In this document: piece after piece, positions 49,840-63,435 of the stretch
Layout of the letters: each line of letters starts with the position of its first letter
Numbering within the stretch: position 1 is the first letter of the stretch
DNA from: Streptomyces cyaneus
GTDB lineage: Bacteria; Actinomycetota; Actinomycetes; Streptomycetales; Streptomycetaceae
DNA: 64,000 nt
Direction: 5' to 3'
Assembly (NCBI RefSeq): GCF_004028635.1
Contig: NZ_RQJW01000004.1
Coordinates: 62,001-126,000 of the forward strand
Program-made: the position numbers and the translations under genes
The notes under the pieces: model-generated
Database searches by the model: none
Told to the model about the DNA's origin: nothing
What the model saw: only the letters and a program-made list of their open reading frames with translations

Positions 49840-50790
49840 TCAGGAGGTGGGGGTGGGGTAGAAGGCGTTGATCTCGGCCAGGACGCGGTCGGGTGCTTCG
49901 TGGAGGAGGAAGTGTCCGGCGCCGGGGACGTCGGCGGAGGTGGCGTGGGGGGCGGCGTCCTGGAGGGGTGGCAGGACCATGTCGGCGAGGCCGGCCTGGG
50001 TGATCATGCGGACCGGGATGGTCAGCGGGGTCTCCTGGAGTTTGGTGTTGTCGGCCTCGTCCTGGGTCTCGGTCCGGTAGAGCTCGAAGCCGGCGTGCAG
50101 GACCTGGGGGCGGGAGAACAGCCGGACGAACTCGGCCAGTTCGTCGTCGGACACGTTCTCGCCGGCGGTCCTCATCCCCTGGAAGAAGTGGGTCAGGAAG
50201 GTTTCGACCCGGCCGGTGACCAGTTCCTCGGCGAGCGGGTTCTGCTTGTTGAAGGAGAAGTGCCAGAACATCGACTCGATGGTGGCGAACTTCAGGTTCT
50301 TGCCGGTCAGGCCGTAGTCCATGAGGAACAGGCCCGACACCTGCTCGCGGTACTGGGCGGCCAATGGGTAGGCGACGCTGACGCCGAAGTCGTGGGCGAC
50401 GACGTGTACGTTCTCGCGGTGGCCGAGGTGGTTGAGCAGCTTGTGGATGTACGTGGCCAGGACCGCCTTGGTCCTGGAGGACGGGTTTCCGGTCGAGTCG
50501 CCCATGCCCGGCAGGTCGATGGCGATGACGGTGCGGCCGGGCAGCAGTGAGGGCATGACCTGGCGGTACTCGTACCAGCTCTGCGGCCAGCCGTGCAGCA
50601 GCACCATGACCTGCGGGCCGTCGCCTCCGATGACGTAGTGCATCTGCACGTCGTCGATGGTGGTGAAGCCATGCCGGAAGAGCTTGTTGAACTCGTCGTC
50701 GTCCTTGGTCGCCGCGTCGTAGCCGGGGCTGAGCGGCTCCTCCGACCCGACGGCTACGGCGGTCGTGGAGGCTGTGGTGGAAGCGTTCAT
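49840..50790 (-). CDS. Alpha/beta hydrolase (epoxide-hydrolase/dehalogenase-like)
   Basis: A 316-residue protein; ATG 50790 has AAAAGGAC upstream. The oxyanion region is LLHGWPQSWYEYRQVMPSLL; the nucleophile is Asp in NVHVVAHDFGVSVAYPLAAQ (an HDFG elbow, as in epoxide hydrolases and haloalkane dehalogenases rather than serine esterases). The catalytic His is in DVPGAGHFLLHEAPDRV, and a helical cap domain lies in between. The N-terminal 45 residues are extra. Hydrolysis of epoxides is plausible, which fits a nearby glutathione-transferase operon for electrophile removal. Confidence 0.87.
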   Translation of the reverse strand: MNASTTASTTAVAVGSEEPLSPGYDAATKDDDEFNKLFRHGFTTIDDVQMHYVIGGDGPQVMVLLHGWPQSWYEYRQVMPSLLPGRTVIAIDLPGMGDSTGNPSSRTKAVLATYIHKLLNHLGHRENVHVVAHDFGVSVAYPLAAQYREQVSGLFLMDYGLTGKNLKFATIESMFWHFSFNKQNPLAEELVTGRVETFLTHFFQGMRTAGENVSDDELAEFVRLFSRPQVLHAGFELYRTETQDEADNTKLQETPLTIPVRMITQAGLADMVLPPLQDAAPHATSADVPGAGHFLLHEAPDRVLAEINAFYPTPTS

Positions 50791-51057: not shown

Positions 51058-51822
51058 TCAGACAGAGGAGCCGCCGTCGACGTTCCAGGTGCTGCCGGAG
51101 ACGAAGTGGGCTTCGGGGCCGGCGAGGTAGGCGACGGCGCTGGCGATGTCGGCGGGCTTGCCGTAGTGGCCGACCGTGGTGAGCTGCCTCATCCATTCCG
51201 CGGCCGGGCCGGAGTCGGGGTTCATGTCCGTGTCGGTGGGGCCGGGCTGCACGGTGTTGACGGTGATGCCGCGCGGACCGAGTTCGCGGGCCAGGCCGCG
51301 GGTGAAACCGGCGACGGCGGCCTTGGTCAGGGCGTAGACGCTTATGCCGGGCTGGGGGGCGCGGTCGGCGCTGACGCTGCCGATGGTGATGATGCGACCG
51401 CCCTGGCCGAGATGGGCGGCGGCGGCCTGGACGGCGCTGAACACGCCCCGGACGTTGACCGCGATGATCCGGTCGAACTCCTCGAGCGTGAAGTCCTCGA
51501 TCGGCGCGGCGTATGTGACGGCGGCGTTGTTGACGAGGATGTCGAGTCCGCCGAAGTGCTGGGTGGTGCGGCTGACCGCTGCCCGGACGGCTTCGTGGTC
51601 CGCGTTGTCCGCCTGTACGGCCAGGGCACTCGTCGCCTCGGCCACGGCGTCGGCCTGGTCCTTGGCACTGGTGTAGGTGAAGGCGACCTGGGCGCCGTCG
51701 GCGGTCAGGCGGCGCACGATCGCGGCACCGATGCCCCGGGACCCGCCTGTGACCAGGGCGGTTTTGCCGTCGAGGGGCCGTATGTCGGACTGGGTGGTGC
51801 CGGGGGCGGGCTGGGCGCTCAT
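51058..51822 (-). CDS. Short-chain dehydrogenase/reductase, module copy 1
   Basis: A 254-residue classical SDR from the ATG at 51822 (GGAGACCCCT upstream). TGGSRGIG cofactor loop, ILVNNAAVTYA, the SVSAD serine with YALTK active site, and PGPTDTDM. Nearly the same protein as 58175-58939 (copy 3). Its promoter region contains the 17-bp operator, but the divergent TetR gene that accompanies the other copies is absent here. NADP-dependent reduction of a carbonyl is likely. Confidence 0.92.
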   Translation of the reverse strand: MSAQPAPGTTQSDIRPLDGKTALVTGGSRGIGAAIVRRLTADGAQVAFTYTSAKDQADAVAEATSALAVQADNADHEAVRAAVSRTTQHFGGLDILVNNAAVTYAAPIEDFTLEEFDRIIAVNVRGVFSAVQAAAAHLGQGGRIITIGSVSADRAPQPGISVYALTKAAVAGFTRGLARELGPRGITVNTVQPGPTDTDMNPDSGPAAEWMRQLTTVGHYGKPADIASAVAYLAGPEAHFVSGSTWNVDGGSSV

Positions 51823-51856
51823 AGGGGTCTCCGATGTCTTCGACACTGCATTTACG

Positions 51857-51873
51857 AACCGAACCGCTCGGTT
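51857..51873. promoter_or_regulatory. TetR operator, copy 1
   Basis: AACCGAACCGCTCGGTT: AACCGA and TCGGTT arms around 5 bp. It overlaps TACTATA/TATAGT, a possible -10 for divergent promoters. The flanking 100 bp are conserved with copies at 55388 and 58976, up to the GAGGAGGCT leader of the missing TetR gene (about 51942-51950). From there to 52132 the DNA is unrelated; a short minus-strand piece (SLDGLLIEIVEYAER) may be another SnoaL tail. Confidence 0.75.
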
Positions 51874-52132
51874 ACTATAATCATGGTGGCACTAACCTGG
51901 GCAACCACAAGATTCATTCCGCGGCGGCGAGCTTTTTTTCGAGGAGGCTTTCCGCGACGCTGCGAGATCCGAAGGCGATGTTCAAAAAGCCCTGTTCGGA
52001 GAGCTGGTGAGTTCGCCGGGAGCGATCGCGGGGTCCGCTCGGCGTACTCCACGATCTCGATCAGCAGGCCGTCCAGACTGCCCTCGGACAGGACGGCGGA
52101 CCGGGTCAGTGTGAGAACTGCGAAGAGCCGGC

Positions 52133-53413
52133 TCAGGTCGTGCAGGCGAGGCCGGGCGTGGCGACGAGATTCGTGGTCGGTGGCGTGGACGGCGACCGCC
52201 GCACGCCGGCGCCGGTCAGGTCGATGGGTAACGGCAACCACGCGCGAGAGCCGGGGGTGAGGTGCCGCGCGGTGAACCTCTTGAGGAACGAGTCGAGCAG
52301 GTCGACGTGCTCGCGGGTGTCAGCCACCTCCGGCGCGTACGTCGACAGGACGCTCGAGAGGATGGTCGCAGCCTCGGCGAGCCGCGGGTGACGCAACCCG
52401 TAACGGGCCGCGTCCAGCCACAGGTCGCTCGTGTCCGGCAGTCGTTCGTGGAGCTCCTCGCGGACGCCTGACTGACCGATGGTCGCGACCGCCAACGCAG
52501 CGGCGGCGCGCTCGGCGCGAGGCAGCGCGTCCAGGACCCGCAGCTCCATCCAGCCTCGGGGGCGGATGGGCGGGAAGAGCGTGGTGAGGTGGTACCGGAA
52601 GTCGTCGATCGTCGGCCACCCCAGCTCGTGTCCGCGGTACATCCACTGACGGAAGGTCATCGACTTGCTCACACCGGCGCCGCCCGGATGTCCCGGCCCT
52701 TCGGTGGGGATGAAGAACACGAGCGCGTCGAGCGCGTAGAACAGCCAGCTGCCGCTGGGGTCGTCCGACATCGGGACCGGCCGGGTGCGCGTGGGGTCGA
52801 TGTTCCACCAGATGCCCTGCCGCGCCGATTCCCACGTGGTACCGGAGGCGTCGACGGCGCGGGAGTTCGCGAACATCGCAATCAGCACCGGTGCGGTCAG
52901 GTTGAGGATCCGCCACCGACCGAGCGGGTCCGCGGGGTCATTGCTGATGTTGACCTGCACCGACGAGGTGTTGGTCATCATCCAGCGGCCCGCGACCCCC
53001 TGGCGGTCGAAGTGCTCGTTCATGGCCCGGTATCGGGGCTGGTCGAGGATGCGGACGGGGGCGCGCACGTCCACGGCCCTGCTCTCAGCCCGAAGGCCGA
53101 GTCGCGACAGCCTCTGCTCGAGCACGGCGGCGTCGGTGTCCACGGCGCGGATCGCGTCCGAGACGGATGGCTGAGGGACCGAGGACAGCTCGATCTGGCC
53201 GCCCGGCTCCACGCTGACACGCCCTGCCTCGGGCAGCGGGGAGTCGGCCAGGGTCAGCAGCTGACCCAGGTCGGGGCGGGTCACCGGGTCCGCCACCGGA
53301 TGGACCGCCCATTCGGCCTCGAGTCCCAGCAGGTCGTCCTTCGTCGCGGCGAACATGGCGTCCGTGACCTCACGCAGCTTCTCGTACGTGATCGAGTGGT
53401 GTGCTGCCGGCAT
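52133..53413 (-). CDS. gshA: Glutamate-cysteine ligase (GCS2/EgtA-type)
   Basis: A 426-residue ligase making gamma-glutamylcysteine. ATG 53413 follows AAAGGAG. LLGLEAEWAVHPVADPVTRP carries the metal/Glu-binding acids, RVSVEPGGQIELSSVPQPSV is the EPGGQxEL signature, and MMTNTSSVQVNISNDPADPL and RPRGWMELRVLDALP are further GCS2 motifs. In actinomycetes such enzymes usually serve ergothioneine synthesis (EgtA). The next gene upstream is glutathione synthetase, so here it belongs to a glutathione pathway. Third gene of the operon gst-gshB-gshA, 67 bp after gshB. Confidence 0.88.
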   Translation of the reverse strand: MPAAHHSITYEKLREVTDAMFAATKDDLLGLEAEWAVHPVADPVTRPDLGQLLTLADSPLPEAGRVSVEPGGQIELSSVPQPSVSDAIRAVDTDAAVLEQRLSRLGLRAESRAVDVRAPVRILDQPRYRAMNEHFDRQGVAGRWMMTNTSSVQVNISNDPADPLGRWRILNLTAPVLIAMFANSRAVDASGTTWESARQGIWWNIDPTRTRPVPMSDDPSGSWLFYALDALVFFIPTEGPGHPGGAGVSKSMTFRQWMYRGHELGWPTIDDFRYHLTTLFPPIRPRGWMELRVLDALPRAERAAAALAVATIGQSGVREELHERLPDTSDLWLDAARYGLRHPRLAEAATILSSVLSTYAPEVADTREHVDLLDSFLKRFTARHLTPGSRAWLPLPIDLTGAGVRRSPSTPPTTNLVATPGLACTT

Positions 53414-53480
53414 GGCGAGCTCCTTTCGGAGTCCGTGGTGAATGTCGGGTGTTTACGACCTGCTGACGACCGCGGCCCGC

Positions 53481-54398
53481 CTACGCCGCCTTCTCGATGA
53501 GGTCCCAGAGGGCGATCTGAGGCTTCTCGCCGTACAGCTCCTCGATCTGGGAGAACCCCACGGAGGAGGTGATGTTGATCTCGGTGACGTGATCGTCGAT
53601 GACGTCGATGCCGCAGATGTAGATCCCTCGCTCGACCAGCTTCGGCCCCAGCAGTCGCGCGAGTTCCTCCTCGCGCGGGGTGATGGTGGTCCGGTGGATC
53701 GAACCGCCCTGCGCGATGTTGGCGATGTAGCTGCCGTGCTTCGGGATCCGGACGAAGGCTCCGGCAACGTCGCCACCGACGAAGAAGATGCGCTTGTCGC
53801 CCGCGGTGACGCGGGGCAGGAATGCCTGTGACACGAGCGGGGGGCTGCCCTCGGCCAGCCGGGCCCTGACGAGCTCCTCGTCGAATGCCGCCGAGGTCAC
53901 CCTCGCGATCCCGCGTCCGCCGTACTCGTAGAGCGGCTTGATGACGACGTCCTGGTGACGATCGGTGAAGTCGCGGATCTCGTCGACGTCGCGACTGATC
54001 AGCGTGGGCGGCGTGAACTCGGGGAACTCGAGAGGGAAGATCTTCTCCGGGAAGCGGATGATGCTCTCCGGGTCGTTGATGACGAGGACCTTGTCCTTTA
54101 TCCGGTCCAGCAGGTACAGCGTCGTGAGGTAGGACATGTCGACCGGCGGGTTGGGCCGGAAGTGGATCACGTCCATGTCCTCGAGGTCGACGCGGATGTG
54201 TTCCTGCCTGTCGGCCGCGTCGGCACCCGTGTACAGGCGCGCCTTGGCGATCAGGCGCCCCTCGACCTGGCTCACGGCGGCGGGACAGACCTCGTGGACC
54301 GTGTGGCCTCGCACGAGTGCCTCGTCGGCGATCTTGGTCGTGTCCTGGGATGCGTAGGTCCCCAGCTTCTCGGAGATGACGGCGACGGCGAGCGGCAT
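53481..54398 (-). CDS. gshB: Glutathione synthetase-like ATP-grasp ligase
   Basis: A 305-residue ATP-grasp protein; ATG 54398 with AGGAAGG upstream. The N-terminal domain has VIHFRPNPPVDMSYLTTLYL (compare FRxDPP...Y of GshB) and KVLVINDPESIIRFPEKIFP. The ATP-grasp part has VVIKPLYEYGGRGIARVTSA, GDKRIFFVGGDVAGAFVRIP, and YICGIDVIDDHVTEINITSS. This follows proteobacterial GshB closely in layout and length (about 310). It joins gamma-glutamylcysteine with glycine. Glycine specificity is inferred from family, not proven. Confidence 0.88.
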   Translation of the reverse strand: MPLAVAVISEKLGTYASQDTTKIADEALVRGHTVHEVCPAAVSQVEGRLIAKARLYTGADAADRQEHIRVDLEDMDVIHFRPNPPVDMSYLTTLYLLDRIKDKVLVINDPESIIRFPEKIFPLEFPEFTPPTLISRDVDEIRDFTDRHQDVVIKPLYEYGGRGIARVTSAAFDEELVRARLAEGSPPLVSQAFLPRVTAGDKRIFFVGGDVAGAFVRIPKHGSYIANIAQGGSIHRTTITPREEELARLLGPKLVERGIYICGIDVIDDHVTEINITSSVGFSQIEELYGEKPQIALWDLIEKAA

Positions 54399-54505
54399 GG
54401 CACCTTCCTGTTCACGGGACACCCTGACGTGTGCGGGGTTGCGGTGGGCCGGCGCGCACGTCGCCGTGTTCGTCGGCCCACCGGGATGGGTGAGCTCGTA
54501 GCGCC

Positions 54506-55327
54506 TCAGGCGGGGTTGAAGGCCAGCTTGAGCTCGGGGTACCAGGTCTCCTGGATGTTCTGGATGTAGCGACCCAGGTTCGGGATCGTCCGCACGAAGT
54601 CAGTGATCTCCGGGTGCATGCCGCGGGCCTGGAAGAACGCCTGCGTGAAGCCGAACAGCGTCGCGTCGTAGGAGCTCGGGGCGTCGTTGCCGAGGAGGAA
54701 GCGGTTCTCGCCCAGGATGACCGAGATGGCCTCGAAGTCCTTCTTGGCCTTGTCGATGATCTCCGCCGGTGTGTACCGCGCGATGCCCTGGTCGTAGCAG
54801 CGCTTGCGGAAGTCATCGCGGCGCACCCGGATGGCCTCCTGGACTTCGGCCGGCAGCGCAGACGTGTCGCCGAGCGTGTTGCTGACGATGAAGTCGAAGC
54901 CCTGCTGGTCGAAGAACTCGAAGTAGATGATGATCCAGTAGAGGTGGTCCTCCAGCGTGCGCTTCACGGCGTGGCCGATGGCCCTCTGCTCCTCGGTGAG
55001 GTGCGTGTCGGGGTCGGAGACCGTCCGCTTCAGCCAGTCGATGATGAGCTGGGAGTCGGAGATCCTGGTCTCCCCGACGGTGATGTACGGCACCTTCCCA
55101 CGCGGTCCGACGTCGGGGATGGGCTCGGCGACGACCTTGTGCTTGACGTCGAAGAGGCGGAAGTACGCCTGCAGCTTTGCGACGTACGGCGACAGGGTCG
55201 TCACGTAGGCCGCCAACTCGCTATCGCCGAGCGTCACGCCGTGCAGCTCGAACTCGGTGTCGCTGTCGACCTGGAGGTTGTCGTAGGGGTTCTCGTAGAG
55301 CGGGTACTGCGTCACTGTCGGCTCCAT
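54506..55327 (-). CDS. Glutathione S-transferase-family protein (FAXC/metaxin-like)
   Basis: A 273-residue GST-fold protein. The thioredoxin-like N-domain begins near residue 40: LSPYVAKLQAYFRLFDVKHK, PRGKVPYITVGETRISDSQL (cis-Pro VPY and the glutathione-contacting D-S). The helical C-domain includes AVKRTLEDHLYWIIIYFEFF and RFLLGNDAPSSYDATLFGFT. The layout matches the FAXC/CDR-type GST group. First gene of the operon with gshB and gshA, so it probably conjugates glutathione to an electrophile. No clear ribosome site precedes the ATG; upstream lies the truncated SDR leader and the TetR operator. Confidence 0.85.
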   Translation of the reverse strand: MEPTVTQYPLYENPYDNLQVDSDTEFELHGVTLGDSELAAYVTTLSPYVAKLQAYFRLFDVKHKVVAEPIPDVGPRGKVPYITVGETRISDSQLIIDWLKRTVSDPDTHLTEEQRAIGHAVKRTLEDHLYWIIIYFEFFDQQGFDFIVSNTLGDTSALPAEVQEAIRVRRDDFRKRCYDQGIARYTPAEIIDKAKKDFEAISVILGENRFLLGNDAPSSYDATLFGFTQAFFQARGMHPEITDFVRTIPNLGRYIQNIQETWYPELKLAFNPA

Positions 55328-55350
55328 CAGTAGTGCGCCGGTTTCTGGGC

Positions 55351-55371
55351 GGTGCCGGGGGCGGGCTGGGG
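55351..55371 (-). pseudogene. Remnant of SDR start, module copy 2
   Basis: About 21 bp (minus strand CCCCAGCCCGCCCCCGGCAC) equal the codons for QPAPGT at the start of the SDR genes of copies 1 and 3. The rest of that SDR is gone and the gst gene follows within 25 bp. The SDR ribosome site and start codon are also deleted. Confidence 0.65.
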
Positions 55372-55387
55372 CCCATGGGCAATTGCG

Positions 55388-55404
55388 AACCGAATCGATC
55401 GGTT
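55388..55404. promoter_or_regulatory. TetR operator, copy 2, between gst operon and tetR
   Basis: AACCGAATCGATCGGTT, same arms and spacing as copies 1 and 3, with TACTATA next to it. It lies 61 bp upstream of the gst start and 80 bp upstream of the divergent tetR start, so it should govern both. Confidence 0.78.
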
Positions 55405-55483
55405 ACTATATGCATGATGACACTAACCTGAGCAACCACGGGATTCCTCCCGCGGCGGCGAACTTTTTCTCAAGGAGGCTCCG

Positions 55484-56077
55484 ATGCCCAGCACGGGACG
55501 GCCCCGATCATTCGACACAGACGAGGCACTGGAGGTGGCGATGCGGGTGTTCTGGGCCGAGGGCTACGAGGGGGCCTCGCTCGCCGCGCTGACCGAGGCC
55601 ATGGGGATCAATCGGCGCAGCATCTATGCCGCCTTCGGCAACAAGGAGGAGCTGTTCCGCAAGGCCGTCGACCGTTATGTGGAGGGCCCGGGAGCCTTTG
55701 TGGCCCCGGCTCTTGAGCTGCCCACCGCCCGGCAAGTGGCCGAGGCGATGCTGCACGGAGCCGCGGACGCCCATACCCTCCCGGACTGTCCGCGCGGCTG
55801 TCTGCTGGTGCAGTCCGCGCTGGCCGCCGGCCCGGAAAGCGAACCGGTCCGTCGCGACCTGGCCGAACGCCGGGAGGCCGGAGTAGCCGCCCTGCGGAAA
55901 CGGTTCGAACAGGCCCAGGCCGAGGGCGACCTGCCTTCCACCGCCGACCCGGAAACCCTCGCCCGCTATGTGCACACCGTCGGGCAGGGCCTCGCCGTAC
56001 AGGCCGCCGGTGGCGCCAGCCGAGAAGACCTGCACCGCGTCGTCGATCAGGCCCTCAGCACCTGGCCGAGCGCCTGA
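55484..56077 (+). CDS. TetR-family regulator, module copy 2 (intact)
   Basis: A 197-residue repressor; ATG 55484 follows AAGGAGGCTCCG. HTH ASLAALTEAMGINRRSIYAA then FGNKEELFRKAVDRYVEGPG; C-terminal domain with LPDCPRGCLLVQSALAAGPE, a pattern of AcrR/YxaF-like regulators with C-C pair (DCPRGC) that might sense thiol-reactive compounds. The only complete TetR of the triplicated module. The divergent operator at 55388-55404 places the glutathione operon under its likely control. Confidence 0.92.
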   Translation: MPSTGRPRSFDTDEALEVAMRVFWAEGYEGASLAALTEAMGINRRSIYAAFGNKEELFRKAVDRYVEGPGAFVAPALELPTARQVAEAMLHGAADAHTLPDCPRGCLLVQSALAAGPESEPVRRDLAERREAGVAALRKRFEQAQAEGDLPSTADPETLARYVHTVGQGLAVQAAGGASREDLHRVVDQALSTWPSA

Positions 56078-56117
56078 TCCGACTACCGGGCCATCACCTG
56101 AAACGCCCGGCTGAGAC

Positions 56118-56810: not shown

Positions 56811-57992
56811 CTAGTTCCCGGGCAGGCGGTGGCCGGCCCGGTACACGGCCCGGATTTCGGTGAGGGCGGAGACGTCGGCGGCGGGTGAGCTGCCGACGAC
56901 CAGCAGGTCTGCGTCCGCGCCGGACCGCAGCACGCCCTTGCGGCCGGGCAGGCCCACCGCTTCGGCGGCCTCGGTCGTCGCGGACCGCAACACGTCGAGG
57001 GTGGGCATGCCCAACTCAGCGAGCTGCACCAGCGCGTACGGAAAGACGTTGTGTGGCTTTCCCGGCTCGATGCCCGCGTCGGTGCCGACGACGACCCGTG
57101 CGCCCGAAGCGATCACCTTGGTCAGGACGTCGATCAGGGCGTCGATGCGGGCGGCAATGGCCGGTGGCGGCGGCGGTGCGCCCGGCGTCCCTCCCAGCGT
57201 GAGACTGGCGAAGATCCCCTGCTTCACAACCCGGTCGAGCAGGTCGTCCCGCAGTCCGGCACCGTCGGGGGTCATGAAGGTGAAGTGCTCGATGGTGTCG
57301 AAGCCGGCGTCGATCACATCCCCGATCGCGTCGGCGGCATGGACGTGCGCGGCCGCGGTGAGCCCGAGACGATGCGCCTCCTCGACGATCAGCCGCAGAT
57401 CTGCCGGACCGTACTGCTGGTGCAGGGGGCTGGAGCCGGGCGTCATGCTGCCACCGCCGGCCATCACCTTCACCACGTCACATCCACGCTCGGCCCGCTC
57501 GCGTACCGCGGCCAGCAGCGCGTCGGCTCCCTCGGCCTCGCCGCCGAGGAAGTGGCAGTGGCCGCCGCGGGTGGTGATCGGCGGACCGGCGGCGACGATC
57601 TCGGGGCGCTGCGTGGAAGGCACCTGGTCGCGGAGGGCGAGGGCGAGGTAGTCGCGGTCGCCGAGATCCCGGACTGTGGTGACGCCGGTCCGCAGTGCGG
57701 TCGCCGCCGCGGTGCGGGCGGTGTCGAGGATGGTGCCGGGGTCGCCGTTCGTGACGTGGGCCACGGCATCCGTGCTCGCGTCCCAGCACAGGTGGACATG
57801 CGCGTCCACCAGTCCCGGAAGCAGCCATGCCGCCGCCCCGAAATCGGTGACGGTGGCGTACTCGGGTGGGGCCGCTCCTGTGAAGTCCACATCCCGGATC
57901 AGACCGTTCTCGATCAGCACCATGCCAGGCCCTCTGACCTGGACGCCGTCGAAGACGTTCCCGGCTCTGAGTACATGAAGTGCGCTCTGCAT
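56811..57992 (-). CDS. Amidohydrolase-family protein (imidazolonepropionase/prolidase-like)
   Basis: A 393-residue cytoplasmic metal hydrolase; ATG 57992 with GAAAGAG upstream. Composite beta-sandwich plus TIM barrel: VDAHVHLCWD (metal HxH), GCDVVKVMAGGGSMTPG (bridging Lys region), LTAAAHVHAADAIGDVIDAG, DTIEHFTFM and RVVVGTDAGIEPGKPHN (final Asp). All metal ligands are present. It belongs to the imidazolonepropionase-related amidohydrolases; substrate (dipeptide, lactam or ring amide) unknown. It lies between the TetR and SDR modules without an obvious partner. Confidence 0.88.
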   Translation of the reverse strand: MQSALHVLRAGNVFDGVQVRGPGMVLIENGLIRDVDFTGAAPPEYATVTDFGAAAWLLPGLVDAHVHLCWDASTDAVAHVTNGDPGTILDTARTAAATALRTGVTTVRDLGDRDYLALALRDQVPSTQRPEIVAAGPPITTRGGHCHFLGGEAEGADALLAAVRERAERGCDVVKVMAGGGSMTPGSSPLHQQYGPADLRLIVEEAHRLGLTAAAHVHAADAIGDVIDAGFDTIEHFTFMTPDGAGLRDDLLDRVVKQGIFASLTLGGTPGAPPPPPAIAARIDALIDVLTKVIASGARVVVGTDAGIEPGKPHNVFPYALVQLAELGMPTLDVLRSATTEAAEAVGLPGRKGVLRSGADADLLVVGSSPAADVSALTEIRAVYRAGHRLPGN

Positions 57993-58174
57993 CGCTGTGC
58001 TCTTTCTCTTTCGTCCGGAGTGGGCGGATGGCGGCTGTGTGGGGGCGGGCCACGAGAGACTCCGGCTCACCGGCGGCCGAACCATGTCCATCTCTGCCGC
58101 CGGGAACCGGAGTACGTCCGGTGGCATGGGTTGTCACAGTGGTCAGGTGAATTGACTCCGCCCGGGGTGGGCGG

Positions 58175-58939
58175 TCAGACAGCGATGCCGCCGTCGACGT
58201 TCCAGTTGGCGCCGGTGATGAAGTGGGCTTCGGGGCCGGCGAGATAGGCGACGGCGCTGGCGATGTCGGCGGGCTCGGCGAAGTGGTCGAGCGGCATGAG
58301 CTGCTTCAGGGACTCCGCGTACGGGCCGGAGTCAGGGGTCATGTCCGTAGTGGTGGGGCCGGGCTGCACGTTGTTGACCGTGATGCCGCGCGGACCGAGT
58401 TCGCGGGCCAGGCCGCGCGTGAGGCCGGCGACGGCGGCCTTGGTCAGGGCATAGACGGTTGCGCCGGGGAAGGGGACGCGGTCGACAATGACGCTGCCGA
58501 TGGTGATGATGCGACCGCCCTGGCCGAGGTGGGGAGCAGCGGCCTGGATGGCGCTGAACACGCCCCGGACGTTGACCGCGATGAGCCGGTCGAACTCCTC
58601 CAGTGGGAAGTCCTCGATCGGCGCGGCGTGGGAGATGCCGGCGTTGTTGACGAGGATGTCCAGTCCGCCGAAGTGCTGTGTGGTGCGGCTGACCGCGGTC
58701 CGGACGGCTTCGTGGTCCGCGCTGTCCGCCTGTACGGCCAGGGCGCCTGTGGCCTCGGCCACCGCGTCGGCCTGAGCCTTGGAACTGGTGTAGGTGAAGG
58801 CGACCTGGGCGCCGCCGGCGGTCAGGCGGCGCACGATCGCGGCACCGATGCCCCGGGACCCGCCGGTGACCAGGGCGGTTTTGCCGTCGAGGGGTCGTAT
58901 GTCGGACTGGGGGGTACCGGGGGCGGGCTGGGCGCTCAC
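58175..58939 (-). CDS. Short-chain dehydrogenase/reductase, module copy 3
   Basis: A 254-residue SDR from GTG 58939 (GGAGACCCCTCT upstream), nearly identical to 51058-51822: TGGSRGIG, ILVNNAGISHA, YALTK, and NVQPGPTTTDM. It keeps the canonical NAG, whereas copy 1 has NNAAV. Divergent from the truncated TetR of the same module, with the 17-bp operator between them. Confidence 0.92.
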   Translation of the reverse strand: MSAQPAPGTPQSDIRPLDGKTALVTGGSRGIGAAIVRRLTAGGAQVAFTYTSSKAQADAVAEATGALAVQADSADHEAVRTAVSRTTQHFGGLDILVNNAGISHAAPIEDFPLEEFDRLIAVNVRGVFSAIQAAAPHLGQGGRIITIGSVIVDRVPFPGATVYALTKAAVAGLTRGLARELGPRGITVNNVQPGPTTTDMTPDSGPYAESLKQLMPLDHFAEPADIASAVAYLAGPEAHFITGANWNVDGGIAV

Positions 58940-58975: not shown

Positions 58976-58992
58976 AACCGAACGGCTCGGTT
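58976..58992. promoter_or_regulatory. TetR operator, copy 3
   Basis: AACCGAACGGCTCGGTT followed by ACTATA, in the divergent promoter between SDR copy 3 and the truncated TetR gene. The arms AACCGA/TCGGTT are identical in all three copies. Confidence 0.78.
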
Positions 58993-59071: not shown

Positions 59072-59252
59072 ATGCCCAGCACGGGACGGCCCCGGTCGTT
59101 CGACACCGATGAGGCGCTGGAGGTGGCGATGCGGGTGTTCTGGGCCGAGGGCTACGAGGGCGCCTCGCTCGCCGCGCTGACCGAGGCCATGGGGATCAAC
59201 CGGTGCAGCATCTATGCGGCCTTCGGCAACAAGGAGGAGCTGTTCCGCAAGG
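59072..59252 (+). pseudogene. TetR-family regulator, module copy 3, truncated
   Basis: Identical in the first 60 or so residues to the TetR at 55484, except that the recognition-helix NRRSIYAAF is NRCSIYAAF. After FGNKEELFRKA the similarity ends and another gene fragment follows. It has no ligand/dimerisation domain, so it is not a working repressor. Confidence 0.85.
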
Positions 59253-59405
59253 CCTATCGCTCACCTGGTCAGCGAGCGGGAGGCCGGCCCGGACGCCTGT
59301 GCGGGCCTGGTGCATTTCATGCTGAACGATGTGGCCAGCGAGGAGCGGGCCTGCGAGTTCGCCGCAGCCTTCCACGCGCCCTGTACGGAGACCTTCAGTC
59401 ACTGA
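59253..59405 (+). pseudogene. C-terminal fragment of an unknown protein joined to truncated TetR
   Basis: In the frame ending at 59405 it reads AHLVSEREAGPDACAGLVHF, then MLNDVASEERACEFAAAFHA and PCTETFSH. The frame differs from that of the TetR part. Coding-like, but I do not recognise the family. Confidence 0.4.
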
Positions 59406-61890: not shown

Positions 61891-62592
61891 TCAGGCGCGG
61901 GGGAAGCCGTCGGCATCGAGGCGGAAGACGAGCTCGGCCTCGTCGCGCTTGGTGGTGTGCAGGTCCCAGTAGAGGGGGGCGATTTGCTCGGGCTTGGCCG
62001 CCTCCACGCCCGGGATGACGGAGACACCGATCGACGAGTCGATGCCGACGTGGGCGGCCTGGATACCGGTGCCGTCCAGCTCCTTGTGCAGGTTCATCGC
62101 CCAGTTGCGCAGCGCCGCAGCGGCGGCGTTGACGTTGGCGACCCGCGGGTCGGGCCAGATCGAGCCGGCGCCGGTGGTGTAGAGCAGGGTGCCCGCGCCG
62201 GCCTCACGCATGGCGGGGAGGACCGCCTGGGTGGCGGCGATGGCCCCGTACAGCTGGAAGTTCATCTCGAACTCCACATGAGACGGCTCGGTCTCGGCCG
62301 GAGCGGTCAGCTTGATGACACCGAACGACCCCACCGGGGAGTACTCCAGGACATCGATCCCGCCGAAGTGTGCGGCGGCGTCCTTGAGCGCCTGGGTGAG
62401 CGCGTCGCGGTCGAGCACGTCCGCGGGGAACGCGGCGGCGGTGAGGCCCTCGGCGGCGAGCGTGCCGACAAGACCGTCGAGCTTCTCGCGGTTGCGGGAG
62501 ATCAGGGCGACGTCGAAGCCCTGGGAGCCAAAGGTACGGGCGATGGCCAGGCCCAGCTGGGGGCCGGCTCCAACGATGGCGATGCTGGTCAC
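61891..62592 (-). CDS. SDR-like NAD(P)-binding protein (paralogue of 37307)
   Basis: A 233-residue protein from GTG 62592 (GGAAAGGA upstream). TSIAIVGAGPQLGLAIARTF, SRNREKLDGLVGTLAAEGLT and VLEYSPVGSFG parallel the protein at 37307-37987 along the whole length, including the loss of the NAG and YxxxK motifs. Divergent from a TetR gene with repeats in between; once followed by a DoxX gene, now a remnant. Confidence 0.87.
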   Translation of the reverse strand: MTSIAIVGAGPQLGLAIARTFGSQGFDVALISRNREKLDGLVGTLAAEGLTAAAFPADVLDRDALTQALKDAAAHFGGIDVLEYSPVGSFGVIKLTAPAETEPSHVEFEMNFQLYGAIAATQAVLPAMREAGAGTLLYTTGAGSIWPDPRVANVNAAAAALRNWAMNLHKELDGTGIQAAHVGIDSSIGVSVIPGVEAAKPEQIAPLYWDLHTTKRDEAELVFRLDADGFPRA

Positions 62593-62639
62593 AGTGATCC
62601 TTTCCAAAAGCTGGTCGAAGGAAGAAAGCCATCCGGATA

Positions 62640-62714
62640 GCCCTACCCATATCGAGATTCGGATAGGGCGCTCCGGTTCGCTGCTGCCACCGTACCACCA
62701 AAAATGGATAGGGC
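62640..62714. promoter_or_regulatory. Repeated operator-like boxes between SDR and TetR
   Basis: GGATAGGGC occurs at 62661-62669 and 62706-62714, with the inverted near-copy GCCCTACCC at 62640-62648. These repeats fill the divergent promoter region and are the expected TetR sites. They differ from those of the 36-kb paralogue. Confidence 0.55.
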
Positions 62715-62738
62715 AATCCGATTGCTGGACTCCCCGGT

Positions 62739-63435
62739 ATGACCCCCGGCACCCAGCATCCCGGCGGCTCCGCCGCCCAACCTCTGCGCAGCGACGCCGA
62801 GCGCAACCGTGAGCGGATCACCGCCGCCGCGCGCAAGGTGTTCGCACGTGACGGCCTGGGTGCCTCGATGGCCTCCGTGGCCCGTGAGGCGGGTGTCGGC
62901 ATCGCCACCATGTTCCGCCGCTTCCCCCCCCAAGGAGGAGCTGGTCGACGCCGTCTTCATTGACCGCATGGACGCCTACGCCGAAGCGGTCGCCGCCGCG
63001 CTGGACGACCCCGACCCCTGGAACGGGTTCGTCGGCTACATCGAGACCGCCTGCGCGATGCAGGCCGCCGACAGCGGCTTCGCCGACGTCCTGACCACGA
63101 CCTTCCCCACCGCCAAGGCCCTGGAGCGGCGCCGCAACGAGGCATATGAGGGCATGGTGGAACTCATCGGCCGGGCCAAGGCCACAGGCCGGCTGCGTGA
63201 GGACTTCGACTCCTCGGACCTGGTGCTGCTGCACATGGCCAACGCTGGTGTCGTCAACGCCACCGGCGACGCCGCCCCCGACGCCTGGCGCCGCGTCGTC
63301 GCCCTGCTGGTCCAGTCCTTCGAAGCCCCCGCCCGCCGCTCCCTGCCCGCCTCACCCGAGCATGACGCCCTCTACAGGGCCATGCTCCGCGCCGGTCCGG
63401 CGGTTGTTGCGGAGCCGGATGCGGGTGACAACTGA
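62739..63435 (+). pseudogene. TetR-family regulator with a frameshift in a C-tract
   Basis: The start MTPGTQHPGGSAAQPLRSDA and the HTH SMASVAREAGVGIATMFRRF are in one frame. The remainder, KEELVDAVFIDRMDAYAEAV to the end AGPAVVAEPDAGDN, is in the next. Both match the TetR at 35543 in order. The break is in a run of eight C (about 62924-62931); one C fewer would restore a normal protein of 231 residues. So either a genuine slippage mutation, a phase-variable tract, or a sequencing error. Confidence 0.8.

Follow-up and report, generated by a model that had tools for sequence, protein, structure and literature searches.

A glutathione operon in Streptomyces cyaneus probably captured by the divergent promoter region of a CifR-like SDR/TetR module

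Introduction

In the CifR/cif circuit of Pseudomonas aeruginosa, and similarly in Acinetobacter nosocomialis, a TetR family repressor gene is divergent from a gene pair that includes the Cif hydrolase, and certain epoxides make CifR release DNA (PMC8244358). Here, we describe a related arrangement in a 64,000-nucleotide stretch of Streptomyces cyaneus DNA (assembly GCF_004028635.1, contig NZ_RQJW01000004.1, positions 62,001 to 126,000), which we call the window and index as G000:C3:62001-126000; the genome comprises 9.83 Mb in 33 contigs. The window likewise holds a CifR-related TetR divergent from a pair with a Cif-like hydrolase, and one cysteine is common to CifR and the window TetR. It differs from the known circuit in that the hydrolase is paired with a short-chain dehydrogenase/reductase (SDR), in the added genes gst-gshB-gshA for glutathione synthesis and conjugation, and in its actinomycete host.

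The glutathione genes themselves recall the iso cluster of Rhodococcus AD45 and the sty cluster of Gordonia CWB2. As in the window, these clusters combine gshA, gshB, and a glutathione S-transferase (GST) of the epoxide-directed IsoI/StyI type, although mycothiol is the main thiol of the phylum. IsoI and StyI are GSTs acting at the epoxide step of isoprene and styrene degradation, and the clusters carry MarR regulators, whereas the window has TetR. The window also differs in its compact gst-gshB-gshA order and in its distantly related GST, and no monooxygenase was found among the ten window proteins scanned, in contrast to the iso/sty clusters. Besides a glutamate-cysteine ligase, the Gordonia styrene plasmid encodes GshB, two GST-like proteins, and an SDR. 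Together with the iso/sty literature, these plasmid genes indicate that epoxide-tied glutathione clusters are already known in Actinomycetes.

The divergent module resembles Escherichia coli bdcA/bdcR, where an SDR and a TetR gene diverge from one bidirectional promoter (PMC12825309). The window SDR matches BdcA (4pcv) at an E value of 2.2e-63, and other solved SDRs score better. The E. coli pair differs in having captured no operon, and BdcA is tied to biofilm dispersal. The TetR/paraquat cluster described in PMC4204640 is unrelated.

Results

The operon adjoins the middle copy of an SDR/operator/TetR module

The palindromic operator AACCGA-N5-TCGGTT occurs at three sites in the window, one in each copy of a divergent SDR/TetR module, and at no other site in the whole 9.83-Mb genome (a reversed-pattern control gave zero hits). 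The genes gst, gshB, and gshA all lie on the minus strand between operators 1 and 2. For comparison, we used a sample of 295 genomes of the genus, including OK074 (G014), G248, and G261; we identify G014 with OK074 because its gst coordinates agree with those on contig LJCV01000270.1. The principal features are as follows.

51857..51873, operator 1, AACCGA-N5-TCGGTT (pattern search)
55388..55404, operator 2 (pattern search)
58976..58992, operator 3 (pattern search)
51058..51822, minus strand, SDR copy 1 (Pfam adh_short_C2; 93% amino acid identity to the OK074 copy)
55345..55376, minus strand, stub of SDR copy 2 (alignment of the module copies)
58175..58939, minus strand, SDR copy 3 (Pfam adh_short_C2)
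51874..51950, leader remnant of the lost TetR copy 1 (alignment with copies 2 and 3, G248, and G261)
55484..56077, plus strand, intact CifR-like TetR, here TetR2 (CifR 6nsn, E value of 9.3e-44)
59072..59254, plus strand, TetR copy 3, shortened to its DNA-binding part (TetR_N as the sole Pfam domain)
52133..53413, minus strand, gshA, glutamate-cysteine ligase of the GCS2 family (Pfam GCS2)
53481..54398, minus strand, gshB, glutathione synthetase (Pfam GSH-S_ATP, over the cutoff)
54506..55327, minus strand, gst, a GST with GST_N_4 and GST_C_6 domains that is closest to IsoI/StyI (Pfam and similarity)
55404..55410, TACTATA, overlapping −10-like hexamers (TACTAT toward TetR, TATAGT toward gst)

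A first-pass annotation, made from the letters of the window, had placed the operator upstream of an SDR gene in copies 1 and 3, as we found at 51857 to 51873 and 58976 to 58992. Its observation that the middle copy conserves the operator (55388 to 55404) and the leader toward TetR was reproduced in the module alignment, and an intact TetR with a DCPRGC cysteine pair does stand opposite gst, as an uninterrupted frame at 55484 to 56077. TetR2 is the only intact TetR among the three module copies and the sole match in the genome at an E value of 1e-45. Copy 1 has no TetR, its alignment with the other copies stopping just 5′ of the TetR start, and TetR copy 3 tracks TetR2 over the first ∼184 nucleotides (nt), after which identity collapses. 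With no TetR in copy 1 and only a shortened one in copy 3, TetR2 probably acts on all three operators.

Related genomes carry the module without the operon

Allowing at most one mismatch, the operator followed by ACTAT matched 7 of the 295 genomes, four of which were the window genome, OK074, G248, and G261. The remaining three (G086, G143, and G290) share a single one-mismatch operator match and were set aside; G290, the one of them that was fetched, lacks the module. G248 and G261 each contain one intact module in the order hydrolase-SDR-operator-TetR, with TetRs that share 94 and 96% identity with TetR2; tblastn found no gst, gshB, or gshA within 18.5 kb. OK074, on the other hand, has three operators, with the gst operon and its junctions as in the window. 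The identical junctions make common descent of the insertion in the two genomes likely. Genes matching gst and gshB were each found in 2 of the 295 genomes (the window genome and OK074). Among 296 genomes of the class, gst matched the window itself alone, and no match was found in plasmids at 1e-25.

Outside these two genomes, the operon occurs with a different regulator. We scanned 84,980 species genomes for gst using peptide patterns, an approach that reaches close relatives only, and obtained 11 loci. Streptomyces sp. DSM 15324 (L004) has gst-gshB-gshA in the window order with 84 to 88% protein identity (88% for gst, against 51 to 66% in the Xanthomonas and Burkholderia loci). Its divergent TetR, however, is merely 31 to 33% identical to TetR2 and is 71 to 72% identical to the gst-divergent TetRs of Xanthomonas pisi and X. 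dyei. Two intergenic half-sites, TGTACC-N3-TCGCA and CGATAC-N-GTACA, are common to L004 and L005, while L006 retains the former and has a variant of the latter. Neither half-site was found in the window at 51901 to 56100, and the DSM 15324 TetR had no match in the window genome at 1e-25 in a search run without a positive control. By this comparison, the window operon has lost the DSM 15324-type regulator and promoter. DSM 15324, Xanthomonas, and “Candidatus Burkholderia” thus share a homologous gst with the window but pair it with a TetR and operator of their own, where the window has those of the SDR module.

Taken together, the empty sites in G248 and G261, the insertion in OK074, and the DSM 15324 operon with its other regulator indicate that the SDR/TetR order is ancestral and that the operon arrived without a promoter of its own. 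These three comparisons support the promoter capture proposed in the first-pass annotation, which had allowed that related genomes might instead show the gst arrangement to be ancestral; they point the other way.

Divergent TetR-gst pairs were found in DSM 15324, in Xanthomonas, in “Candidatus Burkholderia” (plant leaf-nodule symbionts), and in Rugamonas (L004, L005, L006, L008, L009, L010, and L012); in L008, the TetR is present only as a fragment. The pair forms a separate module.

The junction leaves an SDR/TetR promoter region upstream of gst

Of the middle SDR, ∼32 nt remain (55345 to 55376), frameshifted by 1 nt, and another 17 nt separate this stub from the gst start at 55327. The truncation had been noted in the first-pass annotation with sizes of about 21 and 25 bp; these need correction, their sum being about equal to ours. 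Copy 2 has further lost 24 to 28 nt from the 5′ leader of the SDR, and with them the GGAG ribosome site that the other copies retain; OK074 shows a similar loss. The gap between TetR and gst measures 156 nt, and all of it except 55328 to 55344 aligns, with gaps, to the SDR/TetR region of G248 and G261. The gst promoter, if the gene is transcribed, should therefore derive from that region.

Homology with the DSM 15324 operon starts at the gst start or just before it. In a local alignment, GATGGAGC-CGACAG matches the DSM 15324 leader with a score reached in 24 of 2,000 shuffles; alternatively, MAFFT aligns the gst ATG codons of the two loci to each other. If the local alignment is right, gst may have retained the following site, with translation possibly beginning at a GTG at codon 5, but lost its promoter.

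55313..55328, minus strand, GGAG as candidate ribosome-binding site native to gst, with a GTG at codon 5 as possible start (local alignment)

The TACTATA element stands beside the operator in 7 of 8 module copies, deviating in OK074 copy 3. Its −10-like hexamers overlap on both strands, as expected of a bidirectional promoter: shared −10 elements are described as a mark of such promoters, E. coli bdcA/bdcR being among those studied (PMC12825309). A sigma-70-type consensus scan does not report the element. On the bidirectional reading, the start site would lie upstream of the lost SDR leader, and the deletion would have left the promoter intact. A comparison of the window with OK074 shows identity at 23/23 positions of TATAGT plus the operator, 67/73 of the leader, and 46/60 of the stretch between operator and gst.

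The regulator and the neighboring hydrolase resemble an epoxide-responsive circuit

The best solved relative of TetR2 is CifR (6nsn, E value of 9.3e-44 over 194 amino acids), and Cys106 of TetR2 aligns with the cysteine of the CifR PRGC motif, a position occupied by serine in 6nsm. Downstream of SDR1 lies a gene whose product also has its closest solved relatives in the Cif group.

49840..50790, minus strand, Cif-like epoxide hydrolase homologue (7jqz, E value of 2.5e-46)

Its best PDB match, 7jqz, is followed by Cfl1 (7jqx) and Cif; we take 7jqz to be Cfl2 from its AGFP motif. HGWP, Asp, His, Tyr, and His of the hydrolase align with 7jqz as the HGXP motif, nucleophile, ring-opening pair, and base histidine, residue roles and exact positions that we partly presume. 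The HGXP motif and His-Tyr pair are described for Cif-type epoxide hydrolases, and Cfl2 itself is without substantial activity (PMC8244358). In G248 and G261, TetR is divergent from the SDR followed by the Cif-like hydrolase on the same strand, an operon-like pair.

Matches to TetR were found in 62 of 246 genomes of the genus. Thirty loci were fetched, and after removal of those of the window and OK074, 28 more distant relatives remained. The second cysteine of the CPxGC-type pair is present in all 28 and the first in 18. A script detected a divergent SDR no more than 300 nt away from TetR in 24/28, and L026, one of the four it missed, does have a divergent SDR. Palindromes of the GTACCGATCGGTAC type, with ACCGA/TCGGT half-sites in common, occur at 20/28 of these SDR-linked relatives (L019 to L046). 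We also collected 34 plasmid records with a similar TetR and examined the contexts of five, which comprised SDRs (two), resistance-nodulation-division (RND) efflux genes (two), and an ester cyclase with a hydrolase (one). The resemblances to CifR, a Cif-like hydrolase, and epoxide GSTs make an epoxide-type electrophile the best guess for the inducer, and the varied plasmid contexts make this assignment a matter of probability rather than proof. The locus further suggests that CifR/Cif-type circuits occur in Actinomycetes, a subject on which we found no paper.

The operon products and the thiols of the host

The gshA frame is open in the window. Its product shares 49% identity with the glutamate-cysteine ligase encoded on the Gordonia styrene plasmid and scores 255 bits against the EgtA model TIGR03444, below the cutoff of 371. 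We excluded it as the EgtA of this genome, as a separate locus scores 481 bits. The gshB product reaches 168 bits for Pfam GSH-S_ATP (cutoff, 23) and falls just under the NCBIfam glutathione synthase cutoffs (255/299 bits for TIGR01380 and 267/272 for NF003573). Ratios of nonsynonymous to synonymous substitution rates (dN/dS) indicate purifying selection on gst (0.21 to 0.34), gshB (0.19 to 0.27), and TetR (0.11 to 0.22).

MshC scores 670 bits in the window genome (cutoff, 485; passed in 1 of 14 control genomes), in keeping with the mycothiol-using host assumed in the first-pass annotation. Given the MshC and EgtA scores, mycothiol and ergothioneine are the expected thiols, and the host is expected to use mycothiol.

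Other features of the modules

56811..58127, minus strand, amidohydrolase downstream of SDR3 (Pfam Amidohydro_1)

In OK074, the amidohydrolase gene beside SDR3 is split by ∼5 kb of other sequence (L003 3490-8377). The dN/dS of SDR1 is ∼0.59 to 0.60 relative to G261 and G248, compared to 0.19 to 0.30 for SDR3, which could reflect relaxed constraint or altered function in SDR1. Two divergent open frames at 61891 to 63435 of the window resemble a further SDR and TetR pair. The leader of copy 2 is identical to those of G248 and G261 at 109/121 and 112/121 positions and to copy 1 at 88/118. An origin of copies 1 and 2 by target duplication at the insertion fits less well than two older tandem modules; alternatively, the divergence of the copy 1 leader may be drift after the loss of its TetR.

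Discussion

At the level of sequence, the comparison of genomes establishes the rearrangement and the promoter capture; repression of gst by TetR, the shared control of three operators, and an epoxide signal are what we infer from it. On balance we favor, with moderate confidence, the reading that a horizontally acquired glutathione operon was captured by a CifR-type electrophile circuit. The operon would have shed its own TetR and promoter and come to lie between two copies of the ancestral SDR-operator-TetR module, leaving the SDR/TetR divergent promoter region as the sole sequence upstream of it. RNA polymerase would initiate toward gst at the shared TACTATA element, and the CifR-like TetR, bound to the adjoining operator, would repress both gst-gshB-gshA and its own gene. 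The same TetR would repress the SDR1-hydrolase pair through operator 1 and the SDR3-amidohydrolase pair through operator 3. An epoxide or similar electrophile, acting on TetR possibly at Cys106, would free the operator. The cell would then make glutathione and conjugate the electrophile, with the hydrolase and SDRs removing more of it and the mycothiol system staying alongside. This fuller picture of a conditional second thiol, in which one CifR-like sensor with three operators switches epoxide hydrolysis, SDR cleanup, and the captured glutathione synthesis and conjugation, we put forward only tentatively.

Several observations weigh against capture by a CifR-type circuit. The first group concerns the history of the locus. 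Synonymous divergence (dS) of OK074 from the window is lowest in gst (0.094), followed by gshB (0.100), the hydrolase (0.107), SDR1 (0.123), SDR3 (0.152), and TetR (0.249); by these values, the operon is not much younger in this pair than its flanks. The hydrolase of the window is nearly equidistant from those of OK074 (0.107), G248 (0.094), and G261 (0.102), and the OK074 TetR is closer to G261 (0.149) than to the window. Sister status of the window and OK074 is therefore not established, and the locus may have been exchanged between strains rather than inherited. The OK074 gshA (L003 11913-13038) is disrupted, with a stop at codon 35 and ∼150 nt deleted; OK074 gst, gshB, and EgtA have no internal stop, and EgtA could provide gamma-glutamylcysteine in place of gshA. 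The second group concerns expression and signal. The SDR ribosome site is gone from copy 2, and conservation of the operator could reflect TetR autoregulation alone. The consensus scan found no promoter at 55250 to 55500 on either strand (nor at 51780 to 52200), a null result that is weak since TetR also has no scan-detected promoter. The gst product scores 112 bits against the 300-bit cutoff of the IsoI NCBIfam equivalog, an uncharacterized TetR (2i10) is nearly as good a match to TetR2 as CifR (E value of 3.4e-40), and CifR-like TetRs also adjoin RND efflux genes. The dS values and the 2i10 score in particular lowered our confidence.

Capture and TetR control of gst could be real with an inducer other than an epoxide, e.g., a quinone, aldehyde, or oxidant. 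The frequency of CPxGC-type cysteine pairs in distant TetR relatives and the RND pumps in two of five plasmid contexts would agree with such a signal, but the adjacent Cif-like hydrolase, CifR as the best solved relative, and a GST nearest the epoxide GSTs speak for epoxides, and we regard another inducer as unlikely. The junction could also be a relic, with gst-gshB-gshA poorly or not transcribed and the operator kept solely to serve TetR autoregulation and both SDR operons. The lost ribosome site, the missing consensus promoter, the broken OK074 gshA, and the fast-evolving stub (46/60) fit a relic; the dN/dS of gst and gshB (0.19 to 0.34), their open frames in both genomes, the open gshA of the window, and the retained TATAGT do not, which makes it quite improbable.

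Under a third alternative, the operon would be independent of TetR, with a promoter of its own, newly evolved or native, in the junction or stub. The first-pass annotation had named a separate gst promoter as a possible objection to capture, and the consensus scan gives it no support. The 17 nt at 55328 to 55344 have no assigned origin, but they are too short for a whole promoter, the native half-sites are absent, no promoter-like site was reported, and the stub is poorly conserved, so we judge an own promoter very improbable. A fourth reading, in which the gst arrangement came first and gave rise to the SDR copies, is scarcely credible: we found no evidence for it, and it was rejected on the single intact modules that G248 and G261 carry without gst and on the divergent SDRs in 24/28 distant TetR relatives.

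Beyond what the first-pass annotation had described, the locus has a CifR-like TetR, an SDR-linked Cif-like hydrolase, and a GST nearest IsoI/StyI. In the open-licence PMC literature, we found no paper on a Streptomyces gst-gshB-gshA operon or on such a capture. Under the capture reading, the locus unites the epoxide/glutathione gene set of actinomycetes with a CifR-type circuit. It also presents the rewiring of a transferred pathway in three states: the empty site, the operon with its own regulator, and the captured operon (two genomes). If this reading is true, glutathione would be a reagent for detoxification, made on induction in an organism that is expected to rely on mycothiol.

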